Positions 1-64,000 of a stretch of DNA of 64,000 nucleotides are shown piece after piece. Numbering within the stretch: the stretch's first letter is position 1; the number at the start of each line of letters is the position of its first letter. Below the pieces are notes generated by a model. The model searched no databases and was not told the origin of the DNA. It worked only from the letters and a program-made list of their open reading frames with translations. A program made the translations under genes and the position numbers. The DNA lies in contig NZ_JAFBCQ010000001.1 of NCBI RefSeq assembly GCF_016907815.1, positions 2,976,001 to 3,040,000 on the forward strand, given 5' to 3'. This DNA is from Microbacterium aurum (GTDB taxonomy: Bacteria; Actinomycetota; Actinomycetes; Actinomycetales; Microbacteriaceae).

Positions 1-1
1 C

Positions 2-433
2 GAGCCCTCGCTCGCCTTCCGGTCGCTGCTGCTGCCGGCGGTGACGATCGGGGTCGTCGAGGGCGCCATGCTCATGCGCTTCGTGCGGTCGGCGACGCTG
101 CAGGCGACCGGTCAGGACTTCGTCCGCACCGCCGCCGCGAAGGGCCTGACGCGCAACCAGGCGCTGGTGCGCCACGGGCTGCCCACCGTCGGCCTGTCGA
201 TCATCACGGTGCTCGGCCTGCAGGTCGCCGGCATCATCGTGGGCGCCGTCGTCATCGAGCAGCTGTTCAGCCTGCCCGGCATCGGGCGGATGCTGGTGGC
301 CGATGTCGGCAACCGCGACCTGCCGAAGGTGCAGGGCGAGCTGCTCGTGCTTACCGGATTCGTCCTCGTCGTCGGCTTCGTCGTCGACCTCGTCCACCGG
401 GTCATCGACCCCCGGCAGCGGGAGGCGGAATGA
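2..433 (+). CDS. Peptide ABC transporter permease, DppB/OppB type (5' end outside window)
   Basis: This is the C-terminal part (143 residues) of an inner-membrane permease of a dipeptide/oligopeptide importer; the frame is open to the left edge, so the start is missing. The binding-protein-dependent transport (EAA) loop is visible around QDFVRTAAAKGLTRNQALVR, which contacts the ATPases. It is followed by the family-typical segment EQLFSLPGIGRML and a last membrane helix near LVLTGFVLVVGFVVDLVH. The stop overlaps the next permease start by 4 bp (ATGA), so the two are translationally coupled. The substrate-binding protein is not in the window, so the peptide or other substrate cannot be named. 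Confidence 0.9.
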   Translation, partial: EPSLAFRSLLLPAVTIGVVEGAMLMRFVRSATLQATGQDFVRTAAAKGLTRNQALVRHGLPTVGLSIITVLGLQVAGIIVGAVVIEQLFSLPGIGRMLVADVGNRDLPKVQGELLVLTGFVLVVGFVVDLVHRVIDPRQREAE

Positions 434-1341
434 CACCTCGACACCAGAGCCCGGGGACCGCCCGGTTCGCGTGGCTGCACCGGCTGTGGCACCTCGGCAC
501 GGGGCGCTTCGGCCTCATCGTCGTCGCCGTGATCGGCCTCACGGCGCTCGTCGCCCGCTTCTGGCTGCCGTTCGACCCGCAGCGTGTCGACGTGTCGGGA
601 CGCTGGGCGCCTCCCGGCTGGCCGCACCTGCTCGGGACCGACGGGTCGGGGCGCGACATCCTGAGCCTGCTCATGGCGGGCGCGCGCACGACGGTGTGGG
701 TCGCGCTCGGTGCGGGCGTCGTGGCGACCCTCATCGGCGTCCTGCTGGCCGCCCTCGGCGCCCTCACCGCCCGCTGGCTGCGCGAGACCGTCGCCGTACT
801 CGTCGACATCCTGATCGCCTTTCCCGTGCTGCTGATCGCGATGATGATCTCATCGGTGTGGGGCGGCTCGCTCTGGGTCGTGATCGTGTCGGTGGGCATG
901 GGCTTCGGAGTGAACATCGCCCGCGTCACGCGGCCGGAACTGCGGCGCGTGCTGCACAGCGACTTCGTGCTGGCCGGGCGCGCGAGCGGCCTCACCCCGT
1001 TCCAGAACCTGTGGCGCCATCTACTGCCGAACGTGGCGCCGGTGTTCATCGTGCAGCTGTCGTGGGGCATGGCGGTCGCGGTCCTCGCCGAGGCCGGCCT
1101 CAGCTACCTCGGCTTCGGGGCGCCGCTGACCGAGCCGAGCTGGGGGCTGCTGTTGAAGGACCTGCAGACGTACATCTCCGTGCACCCCCTCACGGTGGTG
1201 TGGCCGGGGCTCGCGATCACCCTCACGGTGCTGGGGCTGAATCTGCTCGGGGACGGGCTGCGCGAGGCCACCGACCCGACGCTGTCCCGGCGCCGCGCCC
1301 GGCCCGAGGCGCAGACGCACACCCCGGCGGTGATCGCATGA
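430..1341 (+). CDS. Peptide ABC transporter permease, DppC/OppC type
   Basis: A 303-residue second permease of the same importer. A cytoplasmic N-terminus precedes the first membrane helix (about residues 27-45). The DppC-type periplasmic segment HLLGTDGSGRDIL follows at about 67-78, then several more helices. The EAA loop lies around residues 175-200 (DFVLAGRASGLTPFQNLW). Start and stop both overlap neighbours by 4 bp (ATGA), which indicates a tight operon of permease, permease, ATPase, ATPase. The two permeases would form the membrane channel energised by the next two gene products. Confidence 0.92.
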   Translation: MTPRHQSPGTARFAWLHRLWHLGTGRFGLIVVAVIGLTALVARFWLPFDPQRVDVSGRWAPPGWPHLLGTDGSGRDILSLLMAGARTTVWVALGAGVVATLIGVLLAALGALTARWLRETVAVLVDILIAFPVLLIAMMISSVWGGSLWVVIVSVGMGFGVNIARVTRPELRRVLHSDFVLAGRASGLTPFQNLWRHLLPNVAPVFIVQLSWGMAVAVLAEAGLSYLGFGAPLTEPSWGLLLKDLQTYISVHPLTVVWPGLAITLTVLGLNLLGDGLREATDPTLSRRRARPEAQTHTPAVIA

Positions 1342-2126
1342 GCCTCGCCGTCCGCGATCTCGTCATCACGATCGACGGCCGCCGTGTCGTCGACGGCGTC
1401 TCGTTCGACGTCCCGGACGGCGCGCGGGTCGGCCTCATCGGCGAGTCCGCCTCGGGCAAGTCGCTCACCGCGCTCGCCGTGCTCGGGCTGCTGCCGGAGG
1501 GCGCGACGGCGACCGGCAGCATCCGCTGGAACGATCGCGAGCTGATCGGGCTGGCCGACCGCGAGCTCGCGCGCCTGCGCGGCGACGAGATCGGCATCGT
1601 CTTCCAGGAGCCCCGCACCGCCCTCAACCCCATCCGCACGGTGGGGCGCCAGATCGCCGAGTCGGTCCGCATCCACGAGGGGATCGGGCGGGCGGATGCC
1701 GCCGCGCGCGCGATCGCCGAGGCCGAGCGCGTGCGACTGCCCGACCCCGCGCAGATCGTGCGCCGCTATCCGCACCAGCTGTCCGGCGGACAGCGTCAGC
1801 GCGTCGCGATCGCGATGGCCCTCGCCTGCCGACCGCGGCTGCTGATCGCCGACGAGCCCACGACGGCGCTCGACGTCACGATCCAGGCGGATATCCTCGA
1901 GCTGCTGCACGGTCTGGTCGCGCAGGACGGCATGTCGCTCGTGTTCATCACGCACGACCTCGCCGTGCTGTCGCAGATCGCGACCGACGCGGTCGTCCTC
2001 GATGACGGCCGGGTCGTGGAGAGCGGACCGCTGTCACGGCTGCTCACGGCCCCGGAGTCGGCCGTCACCCAGGGTCTGCTGCGCGATGCCACCGCCACGC
2101 TGTGGCGACCGGGAGGTGCGGCATGA
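1338..2126 (+). CDS. Peptide ABC transporter ATP-binding protein, DppD type
   Basis: A 262-residue ABC ATPase. Walker A is GESASGKS (35-42), with Ala where GESGSGKS is usual. The Q-loop is [11 protein letters not shown], the signature is [12 protein letters not shown] and Walker B is [12 protein letters not shown], with a switch histidine in FITHDLAVL. The start is the ATG that overlaps the upstream stop by 4 bp; a much longer open frame upstream is a shadow of the permease gene. The C-terminus lacks the long oligopeptide-family extension with an iron-sulfur motif seen in some DppD proteins. Confidence 0.92.
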
Positions 2127-2962
2127 CCGAGCACGACGCGCCGGGCACGGGCCGGCGGCAGGATCCCCGGGAACTGGTGCGGGTGCGGGGCCTCACCCGG
2201 CGCTTCCGCCAGCGCGGCGGGCGCCTGTTCACGCCGAAGCGCTGGACGACGGCGCTCGACGACGCCGACCTCGACGTCCGCGCCGGCTCCGCGGTCGGGA
2301 TCATCGGCGAGTCCGGCTCGGGCAAGTCCACGCTCGTGCGCCTCATGCTGGGCCTCGACGTGCCGACGGGCGGCACCGTCGAGGTCGCCGGGCGCGCCGT
2401 CGACGCGCGGGCCGGTGCGCGGTCGCTGCACTGGCTGCGACGCGAGACCGGCATCGTCTTCCAGGACCCGTACGCCTCGCTCGATCCCCGCATGAGCGTC
2501 GGCCGCATCGTCGGGGAGCCGCTGTGGGCGCTCGGGATCGAGGGCGACCGCCGTGCCCGCGTGCACGAGGTGCTGACCGACGTGGGCCTCGAACCCAAGA
2601 TGGCCGACCGCTACCCGCACGAGTTCTCCGGCGGTCAGCGTCAGCGCGTCGCGCTGGCGCGCGCGATCGTCCACCGGCCCCGGCTGCTCGTCGGCGACGA
2701 GCCGCTGTCGGCGCTCGATGTCACCGTCCGCGCGCAGATCCTGGAGCTCATCCGGGAGCTCCGCGCCGCCCAGCAGCTGACCCTCGTCATGGTCTCGCAC
2801 GACATCGGCGTGGTGCAGAACCTGTGCGACGAGGTCCTCGTGATGAAGGACGGCCGGATCGTGGAGGAGGGCCCGACCGAGAAGGTGCTGCTCGCGCCGC
2901 AGGTGGCCTACACGCGGCGCCTGCTCGCCTCGATCCCCGTCATCGACCCGCCCCGGGGCTGA
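2123..2962 (+). CDS. Peptide ABC transporter ATP-binding protein, DppF type
   Basis: A 279-residue ABC ATPase and last gene of the transporter operon. Walker A is GESGSGKST (62-70), the Q-loop is [16 protein letters not shown], the signature is [14 protein letters not shown], Walker B is [12 protein letters not shown] and the H-loop is [11 protein letters not shown] at 2123 is chosen because it overlaps the previous stop (ATGA); an in-frame start 21 bp upstream would run into the previous gene. It would pair with the DppD-type ATPase as a heterodimer on the cytoplasmic face. Confidence 0.92.
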
Positions 2963-2982
2963 CCGGTGTCGGGGGCGCGGCG

Positions 2983-2988
2983 TAGGGT
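2983..2988 (+). promoter_or_regulatory. -10 box TAGGGT of the M4 protease gene (leaderless start)
   Basis: TAGGGT ends 7 nt before the ATG at 2996 and there is no Shine-Dalgarno sequence. This is the arrangement expected for a leaderless mRNA and it supports ATG 2996 over the in-frame GTG at 2966. Confidence 0.55.
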
Positions 2989-2995
2989 GACCCGC

Positions 2996-4054
2996 ATGCA
3001 CGCGATCATCCCGCCCTACCTGCTGGCACGGCTGGCCACCGCCGAGGCCCCGCACCTGGCCGTCGCAGCCGAGGCCGCCCGCGCGACGCTCGCGACGCCC
3101 CGCGTCTACCACCCGACGCGCGCGAACCTCGACGTCACGGTCGAGGGCGACGCGCTGGTGTTGGAGGGCTCTCCGGCACCGGATCGCGTGATCTCCGACG
3201 CGCAGCACCGTGAGACGCTGCCGGGCGTGCGGGTGCGCGGCGAGGACGACCCGGCATCCGACGACGTGGCGGTCAACCAGGCCTTCGACGGCCTCGGCGA
3301 CACGTTCGACCTGCTGTGGGACGCCTTCGGCCGCGCCGCCATCGACGGCGCCGGCGGCACGCTGGAGGCGACCGTGCACTACGGCCAGAAGTACGACAAC
3401 GCGTTCTGGGACGGCGAGCGCATGGTGTTCGGCGACGGCGACGGCGAGGTCTTCACCGGCTTCACCGGCTCGGTGAGCGTCATCGGACACGAGCTCGGGC
3501 ACGGCGTGATCGAACACGCCGGGGGCCTGGAGTATCAGGGACAGTCCGGCGCCCTGAACGAGTCCGTCGCCGACGTGTTCGGCGCGCTCACGGAGCAGCA
3601 TCTCGTGCGGCAGAGCGCCGTGGAGGCGTCCTGGCTGATCGGGGCGGGGATCTTCACGGATGCCGTGCAGGGCACGGCTCTGCGGTCGATGAAGGCGCCC
3701 GGCACCGCCTACGACGACGACGTGCTCGGCCGCGACCCGCAGCCGGCGCACATGCGCGACTACGTCGAGACGACCGAGGACAACGGCGGCGTGCACATCA
3801 ACTCCGGCATCCCGAACAAGGCGTTCCACCTCGTCGCGACGGCCCTCGGCGGGTACGCATGGGAGCGCGCCGGCCGCATCTGGTACCTGGCGCTCACCGG
3901 CGGACGACTTTCGCGCACCGCCGATTTCGCGGCCTTCGCCGCGGAGACGGTGGCCGTCGCCGCGCGGGAGTACGGTGAGGACTCGGAGGAGGCCGACGCC
4001 GTCCGCACCGCGTGGTCCGCGGTCGGGGTCGTGAACGGTGACGAACGATCCTGA
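2996..4054 (+). CDS. M4 family (protealysin-like) zinc metalloprotease
   Basis: A 352-residue protease. The zinc motif HELGH is at 165-169 and the third ligand Glu189 lies in [12 protein letters not shown]. The downstream motif [10 protein letters not shown] supplies the catalytic-domain residues typical of thermolysin relatives. There is no signal peptide. Instead the protein begins [10 protein letters not shown], which matches the short conserved propeptide of protealysin-like zymogens. The protein therefore probably matures by removal of a short N-terminal piece and may act inside the cell or be exported non-classically. Its 3' end overlaps the next gene, an emfourin-like inhibitor, by 17 bp. 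Confidence 0.92.
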
Positions 4055-4364: not shown

Positions 4365-4373
4365 CTCCGCCGC

Positions 4374-6315: not shown

Positions 6316-7806
6316 GTGACATCGAAGTCGGCTCTGGGAGCGCTCGCCACCGCAACCGCGTCTGTGCGCTCCTCGGCGGTCGGCGTCACCGCCGCGCTCA
6401 TCGGATGGTTCGTGCTGGTCGAGCTCGTCAGCGGCATCCTGCAGGGCTACTACGTGCCCCTGTTCAGCGACATCGTGACGACGCTCGGCATCCACGACTC
6501 CGACGTCAACTGGTTCGAGGCATCGCAGCTGCTGTTGTCGGCGCTCGTCGTGCCGATCCTCGCGAAGCTCGGCGACATGTACGGGCACAAGAAGATCCTG
6601 CTGATCGCGGCGATCCTCACGGCCGGGGCGACCTGGTGGCTGGCCTTTGCGACATCCTTCTGGTCGTTCCTCATCGCGTGGGCGCTGCAGGGGTTCTACG
6701 TCGTCTGGCTGCCGCTGGAGATCGCGCTCATCTTCGAGCGCGGCCGGCGTCAGCAGCGTGGCGTGTCGACCACGCGGCGCGCGGCGGGCCTGCTCGTCGT
6801 GGGCCTGCAGGCCGGTGCCATCATCGGCGCGCTGGCCGCCGGGCGCATCTTCGCGGCCACGCAGGACCTCACCACGACCCTCATCGTGCCCGCGGTGGCG
6901 GTGACCCTCGTCGCCGTCGTGATCTGGTTCGGCGTGCCCGAGTCGAAGCCGGAGCCGGGCCGCTCCCTCGACCTGTGGGGATTCGTGCTGCTCGCCTGGG
7001 GCCTGCTGCTGGTCACCGGCGGCCTCGCCTGGATGCGCATGATCGGCGAGCTGGGCCTCGGCGCGGACGCCTGGACCTGGGTGATCGCGCTGATCGTCCT
7101 GGGTCTCGCCGTCTTCGCCCTGTTCGTGCGGTACGAGCTGCGCCAGCAGGACCCGGCCATCGACATCCGCGTGCTGCGTCGCCCCGAGATGTGGCCCGTG
7201 CAGGTCACGGCGTTCCTGATCGGCATCAGCCTGCTCGGCGCGCAGGGTCCGCTGTCCACGTATGCCGGCACCGACCGCTCGCTCGGGTACGGCCTGGGGC
7301 TGGATGCCACGGAGCGCTCCAACATCATCGGCGTGTACCTCGTGTCGCTCATCGTCGGCGCGATCCTGTTCGCGGTGACCTCGCGCCGGGCGAGCCCGCG
7401 CATCGTGCTGATCGTCGCGACGCTGCTCGTCGGCGTCGGCTACACGCTGTTCCTGCCGTTCCACCTCGAGCTCTGGCAGGTGCTGCTGAACCTGTGCATC
7501 GCGGGCCTCGGCTGCGGCGCGCTCGTCGGAGCGCTGCCGGCCGCGGCCGCCGCGGCGGCACCGCTCGGGCAGACGGGCGTGGCGTCCGCGCTCACCAACA
7601 CGACCAAGACGATCGGCGGCACGTTCTCGTCGGCGGTGTTCGGCGTCGTGCTCGCGGCGGGCGTGGGCGCCGTCGCGAGCCAGACCGCGGCATCCCTCGG
7701 CGGATACATGACCGTGTGGGCGATCTGCGCCGGCGGCGGGTTCCTCGCCGCCGTCCTGCTGCTGTTCGTCCCGAAGGTCGCGTTCGCCGACGCTCCCCCC
7801 GCCTGA
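6316..7806 (+). CDS. MFS multidrug-type exporter (DHA2/EmrB-like)
   Basis: A 496-residue polytopic membrane protein with about 14 hydrophobic segments, the topology of the DHA2 drug-proton antiporter group. The N-terminal domain carries the MFS motif-A-like loop LGDMYGHKKILL. A proline-glycine-rich helix with GGTFSSAVFGVVLAAGVG lies near the end. GTG 6316 is chosen because a -10 box TAGACT stands 7 nt upstream. The longer frame from 6097 is antisense to the phosphoribosyltransferase gene. The substrate is unknown. Confidence 0.85.
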   Translation: MTSKSALGALATATASVRSSAVGVTAALIGWFVLVELVSGILQGYYVPLFSDIVTTLGIHDSDVNWFEASQLLLSALVVPILAKLGDMYGHKKILLIAAILTAGATWWLAFATSFWSFLIAWALQGFYVVWLPLEIALIFERGRRQQRGVSTTRRAAGLLVVGLQAGAIIGALAAGRIFAATQDLTTTLIVPAVAVTLVAVVIWFGVPESKPEPGRSLDLWGFVLLAWGLLLVTGGLAWMRMIGELGLGADAWTWVIALIVLGLAVFALFVRYELRQQDPAIDIRVLRRPEMWPVQVTAFLIGISLLGAQGPLSTYAGTDRSLGYGLGLDATERSNIIGVYLVSLIVGAILFAVTSRRASPRIVLIVATLLVGVGYTLFLPFHLELWQVLLNLCIAGLGCGALVGALPAAAAAAAPLGQTGVASALTNTTKTIGGTFSSAVFGVVLAAGVGAVASQTAASLGGYMTVWAICAGGGFLAAVLLLFVPKVAFADAPPA

Positions 7807-20432: not shown

Positions 20433-20541
20433 GTACCCACGGTACCGACAGAAAACCTGGGATACCCTTGATGGATGTGTGCGTGAGGGCTCCTGGATGC
20501 CCCGTACGGACTGAACTTCATCGATGAAAGCAGGCGCAACC

Positions 20542-23500
20542 GTGTCCAGTCAGGTGACCGGCGTGGGTACTTCGAGCGACGGCGAATTCGGGGCCAACGA
20601 GTGGCTCGTCGCCGAGATGTACGACCAATTCGCGAAGGATCGCAACTCGGTCGACCAGGCTTGGTGGCCGGTGCTGGAGGCGTACGAGAAGACGCAACGG
20701 GATGCCGGCACGGCCCCCGCTCCGGCCGGTGAACCGCAGGCCCCGTCCGCGGCGCAGCCCGCGGCATCCGCCCCCGCCGCCCCCGCCCCAGCGGCCACGC
20801 CGGCCTCGGAGGCCCGCCCGCTGACCGCACCCATCCCCGTCGTCGGCGGCCCCCAGCCGGTCGCCCGCACCACGGCACGTCCGGCGGCCCCGCAGCCGGT
20901 GCCGGCGCAGGCGCCGAAGGACGAGCCCGCCCAGACCGCCGCCCGCGAAGACGTCGTCACGCCGCTGCGCGGCATGCCGAAGACCCTCGCGGCGAACATG
21001 GACGAGTCCCTCACTGTCCCCACCGCCACGAGTGTGCGCACCGTTCCGGCGAAGCTCATGATCGACAACCGGATCGTGATCAACAACCACATGTCCCGCA
21101 CGCGGGGCGGCAAGGTCAGCTTCACGCACCTCATCGGATGGGCGCTCATCCAGGCGCTGAAAGTCTTCCCGAGCCAGAACGTCTCCTACGCCGAGATCGA
21201 CGGCAAGCCCTCGGTGGTCGCACCCGCGCACATCAACCTCGGCATCGCGATCGACCTCCCGAAGCCCGACGGCACGCGCGCCCTCATGGTCCCGAGCATC
21301 AAGCAGGCCGAGTCGCTGACGTTCAGCGAGTACCTCTCCGCCTATGAGGACCTCGTCAAGCGCGCGCGGGGCAACAAGCTCACTGCGACCGACTTCCAGG
21401 GCACGACGATCTCGCTGACCAACCCCGGCGGCATCGGCACGGTCCACTCCGTGCCGCGCCTCATGAAGGGTCAGGGCTGCATCGTCGGCGCCGGCGCCCT
21501 CGAGTACCCCGCCGAATTCCAGGGCTCGAGCGAGAAGACGCTCGTCGAGCTCGCCATCGGCAAGACGATCACCCTCACGTCGACGTACGACCACCGCGTC
21601 ATCCAGGGTGCCGGTTCCGGCGAGTTCCTCAAGATCGTGCACGAGCTGCTCATCGGCCAGCGCGGCTTCTACGAGGAGATCTTCGCGGCGCTGCGCATCC
21701 CGTACGCGCCGATCCACTGGTCCAGCGACATCAACGTCGACCTCGCCGAGCGCGTCGACAAGCAGTCCCGCGTCGTCGAGCTCATCAACTCCTACCGCGT
21801 GCGCGGCCACCTCATGGCCGACACCGACCCCCTCGAGTACGTGCAGCGCACGCACCCCGACCTCGAGATCGAGAACCACGGGCTGACGTTCTGGGACCTC
21901 GACCGCGAGTTCGTGACGGGCGGCTTCGGCGGCCGACGCACGATGAAGCTGCGCGACATCCTGGGCGTGCTGCGCGACTCGTACTGCCGCACGATCGGTG
22001 TCGAGTACATGCACATCCAGGACCCGACCCAGCGCAAGTGGTTCCAGGACAACGTCGAGGTCAAGTACCAGAAGCCGAGCCACGACGAGCAGCTGCGCAT
22101 CCTCGACAAGCTGAACCAGGCCGAGGCGTTCGAGACCTTCCTGCAGACCAAGTACGTCGGCCAGAAGCGCTTCAGCCTCGAGGGCGGCGAGTCGCTCATT
22201 CCGCTGCTGGACGAGATCCTGCAGGGAGCGGCCGGCGCGGGCCTGGACGGCGCCGCGATCGGCATGGCCCACCGCGGGCGCCTCAACGTGCTGACGAACA
22301 TCGCGGGCAAGACCTACAGCCAGATCTTCCGCGAGTTCGAGGGGTCCGTCGCGATCGGGTCGAAGTCGGGCTCCGGCGACGTCAAGTACCACCTCGGCAC
22401 GGAGGGCACCTTCGTGTCGGATGCCGGGGAGGAGCTGCCGGTGTACCTGGCGGCCAACCCGTCGCACCTGGAGACGGTCGACGGCGTGCTGGAGGGCATC
22501 GTCCGCGCCAAGCAGGACCGGATGCCGATCGGCACGTACTCGTGGCTGCCGATCCTCGTCCACGGCGATGCGGCGTTCGCCGGTCAGGGCGTCGTGGTGG
22601 AGACCCTGCAGATGTCGCAGCTGCGCGGGTACCGCACCGGCGGCACCGTGCACGTCGTCGTCAACAACCAGGTCGGCTTCACGACCCTGCCGCAGGACGG
22701 CCGCACGTCGGTGTACGCCACCGACGTCGCCAAGACCATCCAGGCGCCCATCTTCCACGTCAACGGCGATGACCCCGAGGCCGTCGTCCGCGTCGCGGAA
22801 CTGGCCGTCGCCTACCGCCAGCAGTTCCAGCGCGACGTCGTCATCGACCTCGTCTGCTACCGCCGCCGCGGTCACAACGAGGGCGACGACCCGTCGATGA
22901 CGCAGCCGCTCATGACGAACCTGATCGAGGCCAAGCGCTCCGTCCGCCGCCTGTACACCGAGGCTCTCGTCGGTCGCGGGGACATCACCGAGGAGGAGTA
23001 CGACAAGGCCAAGGCCGACTTCCAGAACCGCCTGGAGATCGCGTTCGCCGAGACGCACGCCGCCGAGACCGGAGCCACGGGCATCGTCTCCCCCGCCAGC
23101 GGCGAGATCGACCAGGCCGTGGGCGAGCCGGAGACGACCGGTGTCGCAGTGGAGGTCGTCCACCAGATCGGCGATGCGTTCGTCAACAAGCCCGACGGCT
23201 TCACGGTGCACTCCAAGCTCCAGCAGCTGCTGGAGAAGCGCCTCGACATGAGCCGCAACGGCCAGATCGACTGGGGCTTCGGCGAGCTGCTCGCGTTCGG
23301 CTCCGTGCTCATGGAGGGCACCAACGTGCGCCTGGCCGGTCAGGACGCCCGCCGCGGCACGTTCGTGCAGCGCCACGCGGTGCTCCACGACCGTCAGAAC
23401 GGTCAGGAGTGGCTGCCGCTGGCGAACCTGTCGCAGAACCAGGGTCGCTTCTACGTCTACGACTCGCTGCTGAGCGAGTACGCGGCGATGGCGTTCGAGT

Positions 23501-24288
23501 ACGGCTACTCCGTCGAGCGCCCCGACACCCTCACCCTCTGGGAGGCCCAGTTCGGCGACTTCGCCAACGGCGCCCAGTCGGTCATCGACGAGTACATCTC
23601 GGCCGCCGATCAGAAGTGGGGTCAGCAGTCGAGCGTCGTGCTGCTGCTGCCGCACGGCTACGAGGGGCAGGGTCCCGACCACTCCTCGGGCCGCATCGAG
23701 CGCTACCTGCAGATGTGCGCGCAGGACAACATGATCGTCGCGCGGCCGTCGACCCCGGCATCCTATTTCCACCTGCTGCGCCGTCAGGCCTACGCCCGCC
23801 CGCGCCGCCCGCTGATCGTCTTCACGCCGAAGGCGATGCTGCGCCTGCGCGGGGCGACGAGTCCCGTCGAGGCGTTCACGACGGGCCGGTTCGAGCCGGT
23901 GCTGGACGATGACCGCAGCATCGACAAGAGCGCCGTGACGCGTGTGCTCCTGCACTCCGGCAAGATCCACTGGGACCTCAAGGCCGAGCTGGACAAGAAG
24001 CCGAACCCGCAGATCGCGCTCGTGCGCCTGGAGCAGCTGTACCCGGCGCCGATCGACGAGCTGAACGCGGTCATCGACAGCTACCCGAACGCGGAGCTGG
24101 TGTGGGTGCAGGACGAGCCCGAGAACCAGGGCGCCTGGCCGTTCATCGCCCTCGAGGTCGTCAAGCACCTCCACGGCCGGACCATCCGCCGCGTCTCGCG
24201 TGCGGCGGCCGCGTCGACGGCCACCGGGTCGCCGAAGGTGCACGCCCGCGAGCAGGCCGAGATCATCGAGAAGGCGCTCACCGTCTGA
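20542..24288 (+). CDS. kgd: Multifunctional 2-oxoglutarate decarboxylase/dehydrogenase E1 with E2 succinyltransferase domain
   Basis: A 1248-residue TCA-cycle enzyme of the actinobacterial Kgd/OdhA type. A short N-terminal E1 segment (GANEWLVAEMYDQF) leads into an Ala/Pro-rich linker (to about 130). An E2-type acyltransferase domain follows (about 150-360, ending in TYDHRVIQGAGSGEF). The ThDP-dependent E1 runs from about 390 to the end (MAHRGRLNVL, GDAAFAGQGVV, CYRRRGHNEGDDP). There is no lipoyl domain. GTG 20542 is chosen because AAAGCAGG lies 7 nt upstream and family members start there; an in-frame ATG at 20524 would add six residues. Confidence 0.95.
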   Translation: MSSQVTGVGTSSDGEFGANEWLVAEMYDQFAKDRNSVDQAWWPVLEAYEKTQRDAGTAPAPAGEPQAPSAAQPAASAPAAPAPAATPASEARPLTAPIPVVGGPQPVARTTARPAAPQPVPAQAPKDEPAQTAAREDVVTPLRGMPKTLAANMDESLTVPTATSVRTVPAKLMIDNRIVINNHMSRTRGGKVSFTHLIGWALIQALKVFPSQNVSYAEIDGKPSVVAPAHINLGIAIDLPKPDGTRALMVPSIKQAESLTFSEYLSAYEDLVKRARGNKLTATDFQGTTISLTNPGGIGTVHSVPRLMKGQGCIVGAGALEYPAEFQGSSEKTLVELAIGKTITLTSTYDHRVIQGAGSGEFLKIVHELLIGQRGFYEEIFAALRIPYAPIHWSSDINVDLAERVDKQSRVVELINSYRVRGHLMADTDPLEYVQRTHPDLEIENHGLTFWDLDREFVTGGFGGRRTMKLRDILGVLRDSYCRTIGVEYMHIQDPTQRKWFQDNVEVKYQKPSHDEQLRILDKLNQAEAFETFLQTKYVGQKRFSLEGGESLIPLLDEILQGAAGAGLDGAAIGMAHRGRLNVLTNIAGKTYSQIFREFEGSVAIGSKSGSGDVKYHLGTEGTFVSDAGEELPVYLAANPSHLETVDGVLEGIVRAKQDRMPIGTYSWLPILVHGDAAFAGQGVVVETLQMSQLRGYRTGGTVHVVVNNQVGFTTLPQDGRTSVYATDVAKTIQAPIFHVNGDDPEAVVRVAELAVAYRQQFQRDVVIDLVCYRRRGHNEGDDPSMTQPLMTNLIEAKRSVRRLYTEALVGRGDITEEEYDKAKADFQNRLEIAFAETHAAETGATGIVSPASGEIDQAVGEPETTGVAVEVVHQIGDAFVNKPDGFTVHSKLQQLLEKRLDMSRNGQIDWGFGELLAFGSVLMEGTNVRLAGQDARRGTFVQRHAVLHDRQNGQEWLPLANLSQNQGRFYVYDSLLSEYAAMAFEYGYSVERPDTLTLWEAQFGDFANGAQSVIDEYISAADQKWGQQSSVVLLLPHGYEGQGPDHSSGRIERYLQMCAQDNMIVARPSTPASYFHLLRRQAYARPRRPLIVFTPKAMLRLRGATSPVEAFTTGRFEPVLDDDRSIDKSAVTRVLLHSGKIHWDLKAELDKKPNPQIALVRLEQLYPAPIDELNAVIDSYPNAELVWVQDEPENQGAWPFIALEVVKHLHGRTIRRVSRAAAASTATGSPKVHAREQAEIIEKALTV

Positions 24289-24295: not shown

Positions 24296-24337
24296 ACGAC
24301 GACGGGTCGGATGCCGCGGCATCCGACCCGTCGTCGT
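24296..24337. terminator. Perfect 42-bp palindrome after kgd
   Basis: Two complementary 21-bp arms meet with no spacer (24296-24316 and 24317-24337). It lies 8 bp after the kgd stop and has no T-tract, as is common for actinobacterial terminators. The centre is GGATGCCGCGGCATCC, two inverted copies of the over-used GGATGCC heptamer. Confidence 0.7.
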
Positions 24338-36345: not shown

Positions 36346-39150
<2,805 letters not shown>

Positions 39151-39380: not shown

Positions 39381-40715
39381 ATGGCTGGATTCTGGGGTGC
39401 CCGCAAGCAGGAACGCGCACAGCGCGACGCGGCGGATGCCGAGCTCGGCCGTCGTGCCGATGCCGCCCTCGTCGCGGCCGACGAGCGGCTGCGCACGACC
39501 GCCGACGAGCTGCTGTTCGCCGAGCTGGAACTCGGCAGGGACGCCACCCGCGACCTGCGCGACGCGCTCGATGCCGTGCGCACTCACCTCGGCGAGGCGT
39601 TCACGCTGAACCAGCTCAACCACGACCACATCCCCGACACCCCGGAAGAGCTGCGCACCCGCAACGCGCGGATCATCCAGCTGTGCGACTGGGCCGAGGA
39701 CCTTCTCGACGATCGGCTGCAGGCCCTCGCCGAGCCGGTCGCCCGCGCGCGGCGGGCGCCGGAGATCATCGAGGGGATCCGAGCCGAGGTCGCCCGCGGC
39801 ACCGATCGCGTGCCCCGCGCCGAGGCGACGCTGCAGCGACTGCAGGCGCGCTACTCCCCCGAGGCCCTGCACAAGATCGCCGGCAACCCGCGCGAGGCGG
39901 CGCAGCTGCTGGAGTTCGCCGCACACGGCGCGGACGTCTCCACCGCCCGGCGCGAGTCGGGGCAGCGCGAGCAGGCGAACCTGGCGTTGGAGACCGCGAT
40001 CGAGGCGGTGCGTCGTGCCACGACCCTGCTCGACGCCGTCGACGCGTTCGAGGTGGAGGCGCTGCGCGCCGAGTCCACGCTCGACGCGATCGTGGAGGAC
40101 TCCCGCGGCGACCTGGTCGCGGCGAAGGATCTGCTGCACGTGCCGGCCGTGACCGCGGCGATGGCGACCCTCGACCGCGAGCTGTCGCAGCTGACGCCGG
40201 CCGGCAAGAAGCCCGACCCGTTCACCGAGCTGACCCGCCTGCGCGAGGCGAACGCGGCGCTGGACGCCGCCGTCGCGAAGGCCCGGGCACGCGCGGCCAA
40301 CCCGCCGCCGCCCGAGGCGCACGTGCGTCACGCGATCGACGACGCCGACCGACAGCTGGGTGTCGCCCGCAGCGTGATCTCCGGCCACCGCGGCTGGATC
40401 GGCGCCGACGCCCGCACCCGGCTCGCCGAGGCCGAGCGCATCCGTCTCGAGCTGTCGACGCTGACCGGTCAGCCCATCGCCGAGGACGATCGGGAACAGG
40501 CGCTGGCCGATGCCCGCCGCTGCGGGCAGCTGGCGGCCGAGGCGCTGCAGCTCGCGCAGCGCGACATCGACTCCTCGCGCCCCAACGACGACAACTGGGG
40601 CGGCCCCGGTCAGGGCGGCTGGGGCGGCGGACGCCGCGGCGCGGGCGGCGACGTCGTCGGCGGCATCCTCGGCGGCCTCGTCATCGGCTCGATCCTCGAC
40701 GGCATCTTCGACTGA
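39381..40715 (+). CDS. Coiled-coil protein resembling the C-terminal part of TPM-domain proteins
   Basis: A 444-residue protein, almost entirely helical, with many Ala/Glu/Arg heptads from about residue 10 to 390. It ends with a Gly/Asp-rich stretch ([13 protein letters not shown]) and a hydrophobic glycine-rich tail [19 protein letters not shown] that could enter a membrane. The helical part resembles the cytoplasmic region of actinobacterial TPM-domain proteins, but the TPM domain and its membrane anchor are missing. Function unknown. It stands alone on the plus strand between secA and hpf. Confidence 0.7.
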
Positions 40716-40830
40716 GCATTCGCGCGCCGCGGCCGTGGGCGCACCCCGCGGTCCGTCGGATTCCGAGGAGATGTCGGCAACAGCGGGGCGGATGCCGGGA
40801 TTCGGTCCTCGGCATCCGCCCTTCTCCTCG

Positions 40831-47188: not shown

Positions 47189-47216
47189 GGATGCCGGGGC
47201 GCGCGCCCCGGCATCC
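47189..47216. terminator. Perfect 28-bp palindrome at the 3' end of katG
   Basis: Two 14-bp arms, GGATGCCGGGGCGC and its complement, meet without a loop just beyond the katG stop (47220). It again begins and ends with the GGATGCC heptamer. Confidence 0.6.
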
Positions 47217-47219: not shown

Positions 47220-50019
<2,800 letters not shown>

Positions 50020-54663: not shown

Positions 54664-56325
54664 TCAGCGGGGGTAGACGGTGATGGCGGATGCCGCGGCA
54701 TCCCCCGCGGGCACGGGGTACCCCGCCACGGCGCCGCCGGTGGCGTAGGTGACGGCCGCCCGGATGCCGTCGTCGCCGGGCTCGATGCGGTACACCGCAC
54801 CGGCGGTCACCGGGACGGTGACACTCCCTCCGGCGGGCACGGTCACGTCGGTCCGCTCGCCGTCGATGCCGGTGAGCCCCACGGTCTGCGCCGTGTCGGA
54901 GGTGGACGCGAGCGTCAGCTGCGGGACGGGACCGTCGGCGACGGCGACCAGTGCCGGCGCCGTCACCTCGTCCGCCGCCGCGAACCAGCCGAAGTCGCTG
55001 CCGGCCCCGAAGCCGGATGCCGCGCGCACCGCGCCGGTGACGGGCGCGCTCGCCGTCACGACCACCGTGTAGGTGCCGACCTCGAGCCCCGACAGGTCGA
55101 GCTGCAGCGGAATCCCGGCGGTGAGGGCGACGTCCTGCGGCTGTGAGGTAGCGCCGCCGGCCCCGCCGTTCCGCAGGATCACGACCGACGCGTTGGCGTC
55201 GGCGGCCGGGGCGAGCAGGCGCAGCGATGTCACGACGTCGCTCTCGCCGGCGGTGCCGGGAGCGGTGACGACGGGCACGCCGGGAATGACGATCTGCTCC
55301 GTCGGCACGGCGCTGGCGCCGACCTGGTCGAGCCCGCCCGGCACGAGGATGCGGGTGAGGCTCGCCTGCAGCGACGCGCGTACCGGTGCCTCCGCGGCGG
55401 TGATCTGCAGAATGGGGTTCTCCTCGCCGAGGGCGAGGGCGGCCAGCGGGACGACGCGCTGGGTGCCGGCCGCGACGACGATCCCGGCGCCTGCGGCGGG
55501 AACCGCGGGGCCGGTCGCGCCGTAGACGGTGATCGTCACCCGCGCCGCGACGTCGCCGGGATTCGCCAGCACGACGAGGTCGGCGGCGCCGGTCGTGGCC
55601 GATCCCGCGACGATCCACGACTCCATCGCGGCGCGCGTGCAGGCCGAGGCGGCGAAGCCGCTGAGGTCGGATGCCGCGACCGTCGCCGAGCCTGCAGCGG
55701 CCAGATCGGTCACGGCCCCGTCGGTCGGCGGGACGGTGAGGACGGTGGGGCCGGCGCCGTCGGCGACGTCGGGCGCTCGGAGCGTGGTGGTCTCGGGAGC
55801 GACGCCCCCGGCCGCGCCGTCGGTGAGCGCCTGGGGTGCCGCGTCGGCGAGCATCGACGCGTTGGCGGTGTCGCGCCCGGCCGCGAGCACCGGTCCGGCG
55901 CAGGTCGCGATCGACGGTCCCGCCGGCGGCAGCGCGGCCAGCTCGACCGCGGCACGGTCGCCGGCCGCGGCGGGCAGGAGGCCCGACACCGGCAGCACCG
56001 CGACGCTCACGCCGAGCGAGGCGGCCACGACGGCAACCACCAGGCCGATCCCGAGCCGCACCGGCCCGAATCTGCCGGACGGATGCCGGGGCGCGGGCGC
56101 CGGGCGCACCGGTGCCTCGGCGGAGGCGGCGGGGGCCGTTCCTGCCCGCGCGGCCGCGGCGTCGTCGGCCGAGACGGTGCCCGCCACAGCCGGCGCCCCG
56201 TCAGCCGAGGCACCGGCGGCCGCCACGGCGGCGTCGGGCGAGACGCCCGCCACGGCGTCCCCGGGCACGGCGTCCCCGGCGGGCTCCCCCACCTCGTGGC
56301 GGGCGTCGGAGCGTGGATCGGTCAT
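54664..56325 (-). CDS. DUF5719 family secreted/membrane-anchored protein
   Basis: A 553-residue protein. A cytoplasmic Ala/Asp/Glu-rich N-terminus (about 1-90) leads to a single helix GIGLVVAVVAASLGVSVAVL. The extracytoplasmic region contains repeated beta-sandwich-like segments (LVVLANPGDVAARVTITVYG, GAVYRIEPGDDGIRAAVTYA). The pairing with the preceding large GT2 protein, sharing a 4-bp overlap, is typical of this family in Actinobacteria. A role in envelope glycan synthesis or export is inferred only from that context. Confidence 0.7.
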   Translation of the reverse strand: MTDPRSDARHEVGEPAGDAVPGDAVAGVSPDAAVAAAGASADGAPAVAGTVSADDAAAARAGTAPAASAEAPVRPAPAPRHPSGRFGPVRLGIGLVVAVVAASLGVSVAVLPVSGLLPAAAGDRAAVELAALPPAGPSIATCAGPVLAAGRDTANASMLADAAPQALTDGAAGGVAPETTTLRAPDVADGAGPTVLTVPPTDGAVTDLAAAGSATVAASDLSGFAASACTRAAMESWIVAGSATTGAADLVVLANPGDVAARVTITVYGATGPAVPAAGAGIVVAAGTQRVVPLAALALGEENPILQITAAEAPVRASLQASLTRILVPGGLDQVGASAVPTEQIVIPGVPVVTAPGTAGESDVVTSLRLLAPAADANASVVILRNGGAGGATSQPQDVALTAGIPLQLDLSGLEVGTYTVVVTASAPVTGAVRAASGFGAGSDFGWFAAADEVTAPALVAVADGPVPQLTLASTSDTAQTVGLTGIDGERTDVTVPAGGSVTVPVTAGAVYRIEPGDDGIRAAVTYATGGAVAGYPVPAGDAAASAITVYPR

Positions 56326-59675: not shown

Positions 59676-59723
59676 ATCGTTCTCCCCACGTTTTCGGCTG
59701 GCGCTGGTGCGCGTGTTGGGATA

Positions 59724-59752
59724 ATTACACCCTTGTCATTCGCCGCGGTCAA
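59724..59752 (-). promoter_or_regulatory. whiB2 promoter candidate
   Basis: On the minus strand TTGACC (59747-59752), a 17-nt spacer and TGTAAT (59724-59729), followed by AATTATCCC. The AT-rich -10 region stands out. The leader would be about 45 nt. The rest of the gap to manA (59753-59863) shows nothing certain. Confidence 0.55.
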
Positions 59753-59863
59753 GTCGCGGATCGTAAACCCTCAAGGCCGGATTGAACCTTCACCCGCGCC
59801 CCGCCCGGCGTGTCGCCGGTGGAAACCCGGCGGGAGATCCGCGCAAGATCCGCGCGAGGGCCC

Positions 59864-61063
59864 CTACGCGCGACCGGGCTGCGCGACGAAGACGGCGCCG
59901 GCGCCGGAGACTTCGACCCGGTCTTCGCGCCCGACGTACACGGCGGCGCCGGGAACGAGCGAGACCACGGCATCCGCGGTGCGCACCTCGACCTCGCCCG
60001 CCGTCGCCAAGACGATCGCGGGGCCCCGCAGCGCCACCGTGACCGGCTGGTCGGCGGTGACGGTGACGGCCGTGAGCGCGAAGTCGCTGACCGGCGGGGC
60101 GTACTCGCGGACGCCCGGCGCGATCTCCTGCGGCACGACGAGCGGGGCGGGCCCGGTTGCGACGTCGACCACGCGCATGAGCTCGGGCACGTCGACGTGC
60201 TTGGGGGTCAGTCCGCCGCGGAGGACGTTGTCGCTGGCCGCCATGAGCTCGACGCCGAGCCCCGACTGGTAGGCGTGCAGCACGCCGGCGGGGGCGAAGA
60301 GCGCCTGACCGGGCCGGAGGATCACGAGGTTCATCAGCAGCGCGACGATGAGGCCCGGGTCGCCGGGGAAGTCGGCGGCCGCGGCGCGCAGCGTGGCGAT
60401 CTCCTCGGCGAACTCATCGCTGTCGGCGCGCTCGAGCGCCCGGACGAGGTCCGCGACGAGGTCGGCATCGGCGTCGGTGAGCGCCCACGCCAGCAGATCG
60501 CGGACGACGGATGCCGGGGCCGCGGCATCCGCCCCCGTCGCCGCACCGTCGGCGCCCTCCGCACCGACAGGCGCCCCGAGCCGCTGCATCAGCGCGGCGC
60601 GGGCGGGCCCCTCCCCCAGCGCCGCCACGAGGCGCCGGGTGTCGTCGAGCGGGCGGATCCCGACGAGCGCGCGGAACTCGTCGCTGAGCGCGACGATGAT
60701 CTCCGGCTTGTGGTTGGCGTCGCGATAGAGGCGATCCGCGGCGTCGCGCGGCACCCCGGCATCCTCTTCGCGTGCGAAGCTCTCGCGGGCCTGCGCGATC
60801 GTCGGGTGCGCCTGGATCGACAGCGAGGATGCCGCCGCCAGCACCTTCAGCAGGAACGGCAGCGGCTGCTCGCCGGCGGCGGCGAGGGCCTCGTCGAGGG
60901 TCTGTCCCGACCCGCCGGCGACGACGGAGGGGCAGCCGGGATGGTCGCCGTACCAGACCTCGGCCTCGGGGCGCCCGGTGGGCTCGCGCCCCTCCAGCGC
61001 GGGGATGAGATCGACCGATCCCCAGGAGTAGTCGCGCGGGGTGTTGGAGATCGGGATCAGCAT
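59864..61063 (-). CDS. manA: Mannose-6-phosphate isomerase, class I
   Basis: A 399-residue zinc enzyme interconverting fructose 6-phosphate and mannose 6-phosphate, which feeds mannosylated glycolipids and polymers. Recognisable are the start PRDYSWGSVDLIPAL with GRPEAEVWYGDHP, and the zinc motif region SIQAHPTIAQARESFAREE. NHKPEIIVAL provides another ligand, and LHAYQSGLGVELMAASDNVLRGG is the conserved C-terminal signature. Proximity to whiB2 and the GT genes is usual in Actinobacteria. Confidence 0.95.
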   Translation of the reverse strand: MLIPISNTPRDYSWGSVDLIPALEGREPTGRPEAEVWYGDHPGCPSVVAGGSGQTLDEALAAAGEQPLPFLLKVLAAASSLSIQAHPTIAQARESFAREEDAGVPRDAADRLYRDANHKPEIIVALSDEFRALVGIRPLDDTRRLVAALGEGPARAALMQRLGAPVGAEGADGAATGADAAAPASVVRDLLAWALTDADADLVADLVRALERADSDEFAEEIATLRAAAADFPGDPGLIVALLMNLVILRPGQALFAPAGVLHAYQSGLGVELMAASDNVLRGGLTPKHVDVPELMRVVDVATGPAPLVVPQEIAPGVREYAPPVSDFALTAVTVTADQPVTVALRGPAIVLATAGEVEVRTADAVVSLVPGAAVYVGREDRVEVSGAGAVFVAQPGRA

Positions 61064-61144
61064 GCGACCAGCCTAGAACCGCTCCGAGAACGGTCCCGGC
61101 GGCGCCCGGTCGGGCACGGGTGCGCGCGATACCCTGATCACACC

Positions 61145-62551
61145 ATGGCCGTCCACACGAAGCATCCCGTCGCGGCGCCGCCGTCCGCGCCGATCCGGGA
61201 GAAGACGGGCCACATCCTGTTGCGCGGCTGGTGCATCTTCGTCATCACCGCAGCGATCGCGGGCACCTCCTGGTTGATGGCGTTCGGCACCGTCGGCGCG
61301 GGCGTCGTCGCGTTCGGCTCGGGGATCGTCTCGATCGTCCTGTGGCTGGTGCTGCGCCCCGAGGTGCAGTGGCGGCGCCTGCCGTGGTTCGCGGTGCTGT
61401 ACGTCGTGTGGGCGGTCGCATCGCTGCTGTGGACGGCGTATCCGTCGGCGACGACGCTGACGCTGCTGCTGCTTCTCACGACGACCGTGCAGGCGATGTT
61501 CGTGGGGTCGGTGCTGACCTGGCGCGAACTCGTGCGGGCGATCGCGTCGGCGCTGAAGTGGATCCTCGCCCTGTCGCTCCTGCTCGAGCTGTGGGTGTCG
61601 CTCTTCTGGCACGGCCCGATGCTGCCGGGGTTCGTCCGACCCGACCCCAGCACCCGGTACGACCCGATCGTGTACTGGGTGCGCGACAACCTGTTCGACG
61701 GCGGACGGCTGCAGGGGCTGTTCGGCAACGCCAACCCGCTCGCCTATGCGGCGTTGCTCGGCATGATCGTCTTCGCCATCCGGTTCGCGTCGCGGGCCCC
61801 CAGGCGGAGCCTCCTCGTGGCGTGGTTCGCGCTGGCGGCGTTCCTGTTCGTGCGGGCGGGATCGGCGACGGCGTGGCTGGCCGCGGTGGCGGTCGTCGTC
61901 GTGCTCACCACGGCGCTGCTCATGCGGACGACCCGGCGCGCCGGCGAGCGCACCCGGTATTACGTGGCATATGCCGTCGTCGGCATCGGTGGGCTCACGG
62001 CCCTGTGGCTGCTGCGCGAGCGCATCTTCTCGGTGCTGGGGCGGTCGTCCGACCTCACCGGGCGGGAGGGGATCTGGGAGGTCGTCGCGCAGAAGGCGGC
62101 CGAGCGCCCGGTGATCGGCTGGGGCTTCTCCACACCGTGGGTGCCGAGCGATCCGTTCTTCGACGGCTGGATCACCGACCACGGCGAGACCGTCATGCAG
62201 GCGCACAACATGTGGCTGGACGTGTACTTCCAGCTGGGGATCATCGGGCTGGTCCTGGTCGCGCTGACGTTCCTGGCGTACGTCTGGCGGTCGTGGTTCT
62301 TCGCCGTGGACCGGCCCCGGTGGGACCTCGTGGCCGACCGGCCGTACTCGGCGGTGACGCTGCTGCCGACGCTCGTCGCGGCGATTCTGCTCGTGCAGGG
62401 GCTCGCCGAGTCGGGGCCGCTGCTCGGGTGGGGCTGGTTCTTCGTCATCATGCTGGCGTTCAAGATCAAGCAGGCGCCGCTCGTCGGTCGCGGACCGTCC
62501 GAGCAGCGCCTGGTCGGCGAGCAGGGCGAGCTCGCACGGATGGCGCGATGA
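61145..62551 (+). CDS. O-antigen ligase-like membrane protein 1
   Basis: A 468-residue protein with about 11-12 helices. A Wzy_C-type region near 220-370 contains GLFGNANPLAYAAL, GREGIWEVVAQKAAERPVIGWGF and AHNMWLDVYFQLGIIGL, the pattern of O-antigen ligases and polymerases. It would join or polymerise undecaprenyl-linked glycans outside the membrane. ATG 61145 follows TACCCT by 9 nt. Its stop overlaps the next gene, a second member, by 4 bp. Confidence 0.78.
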   Translation: MAVHTKHPVAAPPSAPIREKTGHILLRGWCIFVITAAIAGTSWLMAFGTVGAGVVAFGSGIVSIVLWLVLRPEVQWRRLPWFAVLYVVWAVASLLWTAYPSATTLTLLLLLTTTVQAMFVGSVLTWRELVRAIASALKWILALSLLLELWVSLFWHGPMLPGFVRPDPSTRYDPIVYWVRDNLFDGGRLQGLFGNANPLAYAALLGMIVFAIRFASRAPRRSLLVAWFALAAFLFVRAGSATAWLAAVAVVVVLTTALLMRTTRRAGERTRYYVAYAVVGIGGLTALWLLRERIFSVLGRSSDLTGREGIWEVVAQKAAERPVIGWGFSTPWVPSDPFFDGWITDHGETVMQAHNMWLDVYFQLGIIGLVLVALTFLAYVWRSWFFAVDRPRWDLVADRPYSAVTLLPTLVAAILLVQGLAESGPLLGWGWFFVIMLAFKIKQAPLVGRGPSEQRLVGEQGELARMAR

Positions 62552-63888: not shown

Positions 63889-63921
63889 CCCCTCGCGCCG
63901 CCAGCGACGCGGATCGCGGCG

Positions 63922-63927
63922 TATGAT
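63922..63927 (+). promoter_or_regulatory. -10 box TATGAT of the ribbon-helix-helix gene
   Basis: A near-consensus TATGAT ends 7 nt before ATG 63935. It is the strongest -10 sequence in the window and again predicts a leaderless mRNA. Confidence 0.6.
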
Positions 63928-63934
63928 CTGGTGT

Positions 63935-64000
63935 ATGCGGCGCACGAACATCTACCTGGAGGAGCGCCAGACCCGCGCTCTCGACAGGCTCGCCGACGCA
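63935..64000 (+). CDS. Ribbon-helix-helix (CopG/VapB-like) protein, 3' end outside window
   Basis: Only the first 22 residues are present: MRRTNIYLEERQTRALDRLA. The beta-strand RTNIYL followed by a helix is the hallmark of CopG/MetJ-fold DNA-binding antitoxins. A PIN-domain toxin would be expected next, beyond the right edge. Confidence 0.65.
   Translation, partial: MRRTNIYLEERQTRALDRLADA

Follow-up and report, generated by a model that had tools for sequence, protein, structure and literature searches.

Genomes filled with copies of a single short word are, to our knowledge, documented in few lineages. The cyanobacterial word HIP1 and its sporadic alternates accompany methyltransferases able to modify them, and the purpose of HIP1 is still debated, as described in PMC4390886. 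Compared with HIP1 as presented there, the octamer GGATGCCG analysed here is alike in its density, which lies near one site per kilobase and far above expectation (4,495 copies in 3.41 Mb), in being replaced by other words in some genomes, and in near-misses that cluster at certain outer bases; the methyltransferase able to modify the word is represented here by a candidate only. The octamer differs in belonging to another phylum and in that the main words GGATGCCG, GGATGCTG, GGATGCCC and GGATCCTG are asymmetric, the sole palindromic dialect being GGATCC. A second comparable system is the DNA uptake sequence (DUS) of the Neisseriaceae, likewise an asymmetric word of thousands of copies with family-wide dialects around a conserved core, with two dialects together in one genome and with inverted pairs capable of forming stem-loops, as PMC3630211 reports. 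Unlike the DUS as described there, the present word is known from sequence in a Gram-positive family, and its distribution is not followed by that of the pilus genes examined.

Neither GGATGCCG nor CGGCATCC was found as a whole word in the open PubMed Central literature. GGATGCC begins a word in 459 open papers, and among the 20 of these listed no title concerns it; nor did the matches listed in topic searches include a description, in agreement, within that scope, with the initial annotation, whose author knew of none. The explanation ranked first, to which we assign a probability of roughly 0.45, is that the word is an iterated site linked to a methyltransferase, akin to HIP1 though asymmetric.

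Unit, abundance and placement of the word

In the 64-kb window (the whole stretch of DNA analysed, positions 1..64000), GGATGCC occurs 117 times against 15.7 expected (mean of 100 dinucleotide shuffles; largest shuffle 28), so that the excess of GGATGCC/GGCATCC first noticed there is real and larger than originally claimed. The 3.41-Mb genome holds 5,180 copies (2,532 forward, 2,648 reverse), and the reversed word occurs 182 times forward and 159 times reverse. The actual unit is the octamer: the base after GGATGCC is G at 106 of the 117 window sites, giving 106 scattered copies of GGATGCCG (51 on the plus and 55 on the minus strand) and, genome-wide, one copy per 759 bp (strands 2,183 and 2,312). 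All ten sites singled out in the initial annotation carry the motif in the reading phase assigned to them, as judged against our gene calls; its heptamer is to be replaced by an octamer with some looseness, position 7302 for example reading GGATGCCA. The 676 copies of GGATGCCG in 464 kb of the genome compare with Markov expectations, not codon-aware, that rise from 61 at order 2 through 92.5 at order 3 and 225 at order 4 to 439 at order 5; under the order-3 model no octamer is more over-represented. The commonest one-base variants, at 2.2 to 2.7 times expectation, affect positions 6 and 7, and those at positions 2 to 5 range from 0.6 to 1.6 times, from which GGATG is taken as the strict part of the word.

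Placement in reading frames supports the DNA word, rather than its translation, as the object of selection or drive. In 464 genes predicted with a simple custom caller, GGATGCCG occurs 587 times against 116.4 under within-gene synonymous shuffling (60 shuffles, maximum 141), an approximately fivefold excess which led us to reject codon or dipeptide bias as its cause and which, on this genome sample, withstands the codon-shuffle check proposed for its refutation. The excess extends to all six classes of phase and orientation, among them G-GAT-GCC-G (247 against 26.5), CG-GCA-TCC (137 against 3.2, or 43-fold) and C-GGC-ATC-C (162 against 75). Since GAT and GCA are minority codons in these genes (GAT 1,486 to GAC 7,046; GCA 1,113 to GCC 8,924 and GCG 9,223), the Asp-Ala and Ala-Ser phases of the motif hold about 17% of all GAT and about 12% of all GCA in the sample. 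Examples in the window are the Asp-Ala sites at 1694..1701 (plus strand, in the called gene 1338-2126, +) and 22419..22426 (plus strand, within kgd, 20524-24288), and the Ala-Ser sites at 3252..3259 (minus strand, read as CGGCATCC on the plus strand of the called gene 2987-4054, +) and 23756..23763 (minus strand, CGGCATCC on plus, also within kgd). Orientation in genes is about equal (278 sense, 309 antisense) and density hardly differs between coding DNA (1.44 per kb) and intergenic DNA (1.48 per kb). Together with the shuffle excess, these balances support the earlier argument for action on the DNA rather than on translation. Of the roles offered with it, the Chi-like one is not supported, as discussed below, and the methylation site and the uptake signal correspond to the explanations that we rank first and second.

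Sites also meet in convergent pairs. The perfect palindrome GGATGCCGCGGCATCC, composed of two such sites, lies at 24309..24324, where it starts 21 bp past the last base of kgd and forms the centre of a hairpin with a 19-bp stem, at 36406..36421 within secA (called 36349-39150, minus strand) and at 54688..54703 within the called gene 54667-56325 (minus strand). Pairs with 20-bp spacing are found in intergenic DNA at 40790..40817, after the called gene 39381-40715 (+) (hairpin of -34.7 kcal/mol), and at 47189..47216 just downstream of katG (called 47223-49550, minus strand); a pair with 14-bp spacing lies at 60509..60530 within the called gene 59819-62551 (+). The palindromes previously noted after kgd and katG are thus both present, that at kgd as GGATGCCGCGGCATCC (RNA folding -40.5 kcal/mol, z -6.94) and that at katG as a convergent pair (-31.4 kcal/mol, z -3.95). 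Terminator calling around the kgd pair returned none with a T tail. Among site pairs at most 60 bp apart, 36 are convergent, 11 divergent and 15 tandem.

Dialects in the Microbacteriaceae

An iterated word is widespread in the Microbacteriaceae, in lineage-specific dialects that share GGAT. Whole genomes gave GGATGCCG, GGATGCTG, GGATGCCC and GGATCCTG, and sampled stretches added GGATGCGC and GGATCC. Between lineages the spelling varies at the outer bases and sometimes at base 5, and dialects switch within single genera (g2, g43 and g1, the last being the window's own). The GGATCC dialect reaches 432 copies against 139 expected in one genome and 50 against 22.7 at one Microbacterium stercoris locus; one Pseudarthrobacter locus gave no excess (40 against 40.4). 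Around comEC, stretches of 80 family genomes were surveyed for GGAT-initial words only, most relatives being sampled at 9-20 kb. Of these genomes, 39 reach z > 5 for one of the GGATNNNN words; the 41 below this level for every such word either lack the signal or were sampled with too little power to show it. GGATGCCG is at background in the two species sampled from genus g52, an absence that probably represents one event in one genus.

Individual sites turn over between species while their genome-wide number stays high. Conversion of sites in place at a dialect switch was considered and rejected, with 0 of 14 and 1 of 13 sites converted. Over 20 stretches, GC content and motif enrichment correlate (Spearman 0.85), low-GC stretches having fewer copies.

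A candidate methyltransferase

Lineage-specific spellings that override codon choice point to a genome-wide mark, which a DNA-methylating enzyme may write or read. According to the mechanism we favour, GGATGCCG would owe its existence to a host protein that recognises it in double-stranded form, the likeliest reader being a chromosomal DNA methyltransferase of the N6-adenine type, with no nuclease seen beside its gene. Adenine is favoured because GGATGCCG has a single adenine in its top strand, and this lies within the GGAT that the dialects share. Copies are gained and lost singly under a high total, as the turnover shows; the candidate enzyme would modify the site, and shifts in its specificity would set the dialect. 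Sites would most likely accumulate because a dense methyl mark is useful, be it in self-recognition of DNA during uptake or recombination or in strand discrimination after replication, and they would be favoured until roughly every kilobase has one, an argument also made for cyanobacterial HIP1. Actinobacteria are not known to possess MutS/MutL, a further difference from HIP1. The repair ratchet proposed for HIP1 builds on these proteins (PMC4390886).

The survey behind this proposal used the profile PF01555 alone on 26 genomes (24 motif-bearing, two of g52), genomes of weak or no GGAT signal such as G018, G024, G030 and G035 lying outside it. Some match was present in all 26. In each of the 24 motif-bearing genomes, carriers of GGATGCTG, GGATGCCC, GGATCCTG and GGATCC included, there is a match at an E value of 3e-41 to 2e-50; one of these genomes, G017, is counted as motif-bearing although its 20-kb sample gives a weak signal (5 against 2.3). 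The best matches of the two g52 genomes are weaker (3e-22 and 1e-23), and the strongest in one of these, G051, is a different enzyme by reading of its sequence. The 19 candidate genes fetched of the 24 align along their length, and all 19 have DPPFNTGR and FAGSGT, in the order typical of beta-class N6-adenine enzymes. The nearest solved structures are M.RsrI, a 'Methyltransferase' (8urk) and CcrM. In this genome the candidate gene adjoins lplA; no nuclease was recognised among the neighbouring open reading frames tested, several of which match no family, and phage and plasmid collections yielded no homologue of at least 60% identity. Arthrobacter belongs to the same order as the Microbacteriaceae. 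In Arthrobacter sp. U41, GGATCC, the word of one dialect here, has been reported as m6A-methylated (PMC5356067); the Arthrobacter enzyme for it, M.AspU41ORF21335P, is a possible orthologue of the candidate.

A residue of the enzyme that tracks the dialect was not identified beyond chance: one column does split GGATC- from GGATG-dialect enzymes, but a separating column of this kind arises in 85 of 450 groupings, the actual one included, and 24 of 205 homologues, several being closely related to the enzyme of this genome, have arginine at that place. Viral contigs carry relatives of the candidate (44-63% identical) at 25 loci, some of which are nearly the same as others; these loci show no GGATGC excess (117 against 116.4). 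The idea that the enzyme leaves a footprint in viral contigs as avoidance of GGATCC found no support, this word being at rank 12 of 64 palindromes. A methyltransferase by itself leaves the multiplication of its sites unexplained.

Alternative explanations and phage genomes

The main rival, possible but in our estimation doubtful, is a DNA uptake sequence, for which a surface receptor of competent cells prefers the word and repeated transformation raises its copy number, as in Neisseriaceae and Pasteurellaceae, dialects following changes of the receptor. We know of no uptake specificity in Gram-positive bacteria. The character of the word fits: short, asymmetric and of high copy number on both strands without polarity, it turns over rapidly, is poorer in low-GC stretches and has dialects with a common core, as in Neisseriaceae (PMC3630211). 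Hairpin-forming convergent pairs follow some genes and intergenic density peaks between convergent genes (2.42 per kb), against which 17 of 24 close convergent pairs lie within genes. ComEC is present in 148 of 150 family genomes, yet both motif-free g52 genomes also have a ComEC open frame of more than 830 amino acids. Transformation of Micrococcus luteus requires Flp/Tad-type pili, according to PMC6370729, and genomes with TadE are richer in GGATGCCG (median ratio 6.5 in 129 genomes against 2.7 in 21, p 5e-5, kinship ignored). PilM presence, however, correlates likewise (p 8e-4, kinship ignored), and no TadE turned up in g5 or g8, where the GGATCCTG and GGATGCCC dialects, respectively, are strong. 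The small phage Efeko, with 13 copies of GGATGCCG against 1.8, also speaks against uptake.

Several pilus components were accordingly rejected as trackers of the word. PilM, for the type IV pilus, is absent from the two most GGATGCCG-rich genomes, this one and G106. TadE, for the Tad pilus, was present in 13 of 14 motif-high and none of six 'motif-free' genomes among 22, but two of the six are g5 genomes carrying another dialect, and the link is further broken by g8 with its GGATGCCC dialect. The T2SSF platform proteins, in 25 of 27 genomes, do not discriminate.

The methyltransferase and uptake explanations may both be true. In Campylobacter jejuni the mark placed at RAATTY by the adenine methyltransferase CtsM decides DNA uptake (PMC10046745), and marking of this type offers a possible way to unite the two. 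More speculative, and in our view rather improbable, is a methyl-written self code in which an adenine methyltransferase would mark thousands of sites, uptake or recombination would accept only marked DNA, and dialect changes in the enzyme would isolate species genetically throughout an actinobacterial family; if true, a single mechanism would underlie both HIP1-type iterated sites and Neisseria-type uptake dialects. A large Gram-positive family with dialect switches, a motif-free genus as control and a candidate enzyme renders testable the question of why genomes accumulate an iterated word. Should the word control DNA exchange, it would constitute a species barrier written in sequence and, on the practical side, tell which DNA suits the transformation of these bacteria.

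It is quite unlikely that the word is bound by a conserved protein of the nucleoid, of segregation or of replication, for which the density of sites would count and not where they lie. The scatter of one copy per 759 bp at similar coding and intergenic density would suit such a role, as would counts that stay high while sites move; the within-genus dialect switches would demand fast change of the protein, and we know of no nucleoid protein with such a site. We consider it very unlikely that the word is a mutational, repair or codon-pair by-product devoid of function at the DNA level. Measured against expectation, no near-misses are commoner than the C-to-T variants at positions 6 and 7, and GGATGCAG is depleted (10 against 21.5), as a by-product might have it, but the next lowest neighbour stands at 0.64 of expectation, too little to supply 600 extra copies; the fivefold excess over synonymous shuffling on both strands, the equal density in intergenic DNA and the existence of several dialects also oppose it. 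A polar recombination or segregation signal is hardly credible. In its favour, GGATGCCG is a high-copy octamer, as Chi and KOPS are, and Chi words vary between bacteria. Against it, GGATGCCG is balanced between leading and lagging strands (346 and 329 copies in 464 kb, the origin assumed at base 1) and between the two strands genome-wide (2,183 and 2,312), whereas the known Chi and KOPS words are strongly oriented.

Phages of Microbacterium gave a mixed result, a modest motif excess far under the level of the host. Nine such phages pooled, with Efeko kept apart and Kale and Superfresh excluded as near copies of Aubergine, hold 45 copies of GGATGCCG against 21.2 and 39 of GGATGCCC against 14.6; four phages of other hosts hold 10 against 6.4 and 6 against 3.8, respectively.

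An iterated octamer of double-stranded DNA

The over-representation of GGATGCC claimed in the initial annotation is real and strong: the heptamer occurs 117 times in the window (2,976,001-3,040,000 of the single 3,412,446-bp contig making up the genome), as compared to 15.7 expected. The base that follows is G at 106 of the 117 sites, with weak preferences at further bases of the site alignment, and the unit is therefore GGATGCCG. The whole genome holds 2,183 forward and 2,312 reverse copies of this octamer (reversed word: 112 and 82); in 400 kb of samples together with the window, 676 copies exceed the 61 expected from an order-2 Markov model, and the excess persists under orders 3 to 5. The proposal that selection or drive acts on the DNA word, as opposed to translation, is likewise borne out. 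With synonymous codons shuffled within each of the 464 genes called in 464 kb, 116.4 copies are expected in coding DNA and 587 are found; expectation is exceeded in all six classes of phase and orientation, most strongly in phases requiring rare codons (CG-GCA-TCC, 137 vs 3.2; G-GAT-GCC-G, 247 vs 26.5). The two orientations relative to genes are nearly balanced (278 and 309), density is alike within and between genes (1.44 and 1.48 per kb), and leading and lagging strands carry 346 and 329 copies (origin assumed at base 1); the word is thus understood as a property of double-stranded DNA without chromosomal direction. A search of the open-access literature, including the best 20 of 459 text matches to GGATGCC, turned up no description of the word. 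A 9-mer, AAAGCAGGC (GCCTGCTTT), is also scattered in the window (11 vs 0.1 expected).

Gaps between neighbouring copies are near-random and slightly over-dispersed (coefficient of variation 1.27). Pairs at most 60 bp apart comprise 36 convergent, 11 divergent and 15 tandem arrangements, the palindrome GGATGCCGCGGCATCC accounting for ten. Convergent pairs no more than 24 bp apart number 24, of which 17 are intragenic, 4 lie between convergent genes and 3 between tandem genes; the spaces between convergent genes show the highest intergenic density (2.42 per kb). Hairpin folding gave -40.5 kcal/mol for the pair after kgd, where a scan for T-tailed terminators called none, and -31.4 kcal/mol for that after katG. 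Among named loci, the nearest relatives of kgd belong to Microbacterium and to other Microbacteriaceae.

Dialects and turnover of the word

Across 150 Microbacteriaceae genomes, GGATGCCG ranges from 30 to 4,495 copies, and in both sampled species of one genus (g52) it is at background (84 and 92 vs 118 and 120 copies of the reversed word). In the order-level draw of 119 genomes, the ratios to the reversed word in the 111 from outside the family span roughly 0.9 to 8 and mostly fall between 1 and 4, so a weaker signal beyond the family is possible. The highest ratio belongs to a genome of family f4 (G214; 534 vs 67). In four f4 genomes (G214, G185, G228, G169), the word outnumbers its reversed spelling by a factor of 3.7 to 8, above most other outside families, perhaps the same trait in attenuated form.

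Within the family, the word is spelled in lineage-specific dialects sharing GGAT. In the window's own genus, five genomes contain 2,303 to 4,831 copies of GGATGCCG and another (G215) only 485; in 157 kb of the latter, GGATGCCG is at expectation (17 vs 16.7) and the palindrome GGATCC is over-represented (432 vs 139, counting both strands), as it is at an M. stercoris locus (50 vs 22.7). Two species in genus g2 have whole-genome GGATGCTG counts of 3,355 and 2,789 (575 in their congener), and a locus of Microbacterium sp. AG1240 has 13 vs 0.9. GGATGCCC reaches 2,134 and 1,848 in g8 and 1,285 and 1,466 in g75; GGATCCTG reaches 1,431 and 1,193 in g5 and 1,177 in g48; GGATGCGC and GGATGCGG appear in partial samples of other genera. 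A genome pair of g43 reveals a within-genus swap (GGATGCCC 1,115 vs 578; GGATGCCG 609 vs 1,654). In samples around comEC, some GGATNNNN word stands at z > 5 in 39 of 80 family genomes and not in 41, and at none of ten control loci outside the family; GGATGCCG is absent from a 20-kb sample of one genome (G030).

Side observations concern other words. The 1.43-Mb genome of a family member (G010; L145, L146, L164) has CACCGATG 23 times vs 2.7 in 60 kb, perhaps another iterated word. Of the 64 six-base palindromes tested at 80 family loci around comEC, ACATGT shows the top observed/expected ratio (400 vs 210), and local repeats occur near comEC at L201 (G049), L222 (G071), L182 (G029) and L197 (G045), for example CCACTCAA (13 vs 0.1), CTCAGGGA (13 vs 0.4), ACTCCTGA (12 vs 0.1) and TATCGAGA (9 vs 0.1).

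Turnover was followed in aligned orthologous codons, in small samples. In seven comparisons, of which some share a genome, GGATGCCG-dialect species keep the word in both at 20 of 104 sites, where background identity of any octamer is 8.5 to 18%. Two GGATGCTG species of g2 have their word in common at 3 of 5 sites, and in the two counts across g2 dialects the other spelling stands at the same place for none of 14 sites and for 1 of 13. Low sharing and the near-absence of in-place swaps imply that most single sites are not fixed functional elements. On these small alignments, the genome maintains word density, and dialects shift through loss and gain.

A possible methyl mark or uptake signal

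The word behaves both like HIP-type iterated sites and like DNA uptake sequences. Of the traits that define either class it has some, lacks others and may or may not have the rest, so it is filed as a member of neither. The reading we tentatively favour (probability roughly 45%) is a mark linked to a candidate methyltransferase of family PF01555. Every one of the 26 genomes searched contains a match to this family. In each of the 24 that bear the motif, a protein of some 300 aa scores E 3e-41 or better; the two g52 genomes, the single genus that provides the absence case, have weaker matches only (E 3e-22 and 1e-23), the one inspected being a different enzyme. Genes from 19 of the 24 were compared; all align and share DPPFNTGR and FAGSGT, and the closest solved relatives are M.RsrI, 8urk and CcrM. 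The M. aurum gene adjoins lplA, and none of the nearby ORFs that were tested was recognised as a nuclease. No residue follows dialect more closely than chance allows: a separating column arises in 85 of 450 groupings. To our knowledge, methyltransferase sites are not usually over-represented, HIP1 being an exception. Even among cyanobacteria, two other methyltransferases are reported to go with fewer rather than more sites in most genomes that carry them (PMC4390886). GGATCC, the same word as the palindromic dialect, is m6A-methylated in Arthrobacter sp. U41 according to SMRT sequencing (PMC5356067).

The methyltransferase tracks the motif better than competence and pilus genes did. The main rival reading, an uptake sequence operating without methylation, is rated as less likely. 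ComEC is present in 148 of 150 family genomes, motif-background g52 included; PilM occurs in 76 and is absent from M. aurum. TadE, found in 129, goes with a higher median GGATGCCG ratio (6.5, and 2.7 without it), but TadE-less genera bear other strong dialects, which speaks against the Tad pilus as reader. By analogy with Campylobacter, as described in PMC10046745, methyl mark and uptake sequence may be one system.

Enrichment over local expectation varies from 2.5 to 17.4 across 20 sampled stretches of the genome and climbs with GC content (Spearman 0.85), as expected if recently gained low-GC DNA is without the word. Nine pooled Microbacterium phages hold 45 copies vs 21.2 and thus a modest excess; the counts are 10 vs 6.4 in four other-host phages and 94 vs 84.1 at 32 chromosomal loci of actinobacteria from outside the family. 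Efeko (L234), a small Microbacterium phage of 17.5 kb, differs from the rest of the phages examined in that its count of the host-type word is 7 times that expected (13 vs 1.8). This excess, modest overall and clear in Efeko, is a neat fit to neither methyl mark nor uptake sequence. Relatives of the methyltransferase (44-63% identity) occur on viral contigs, on which an excess of GGATGC was not seen. The palindromes most avoided on these contigs (L292-L312 and others) are GAGCTC (20 vs 111.8) and CTCGAG (26 vs 117.3).
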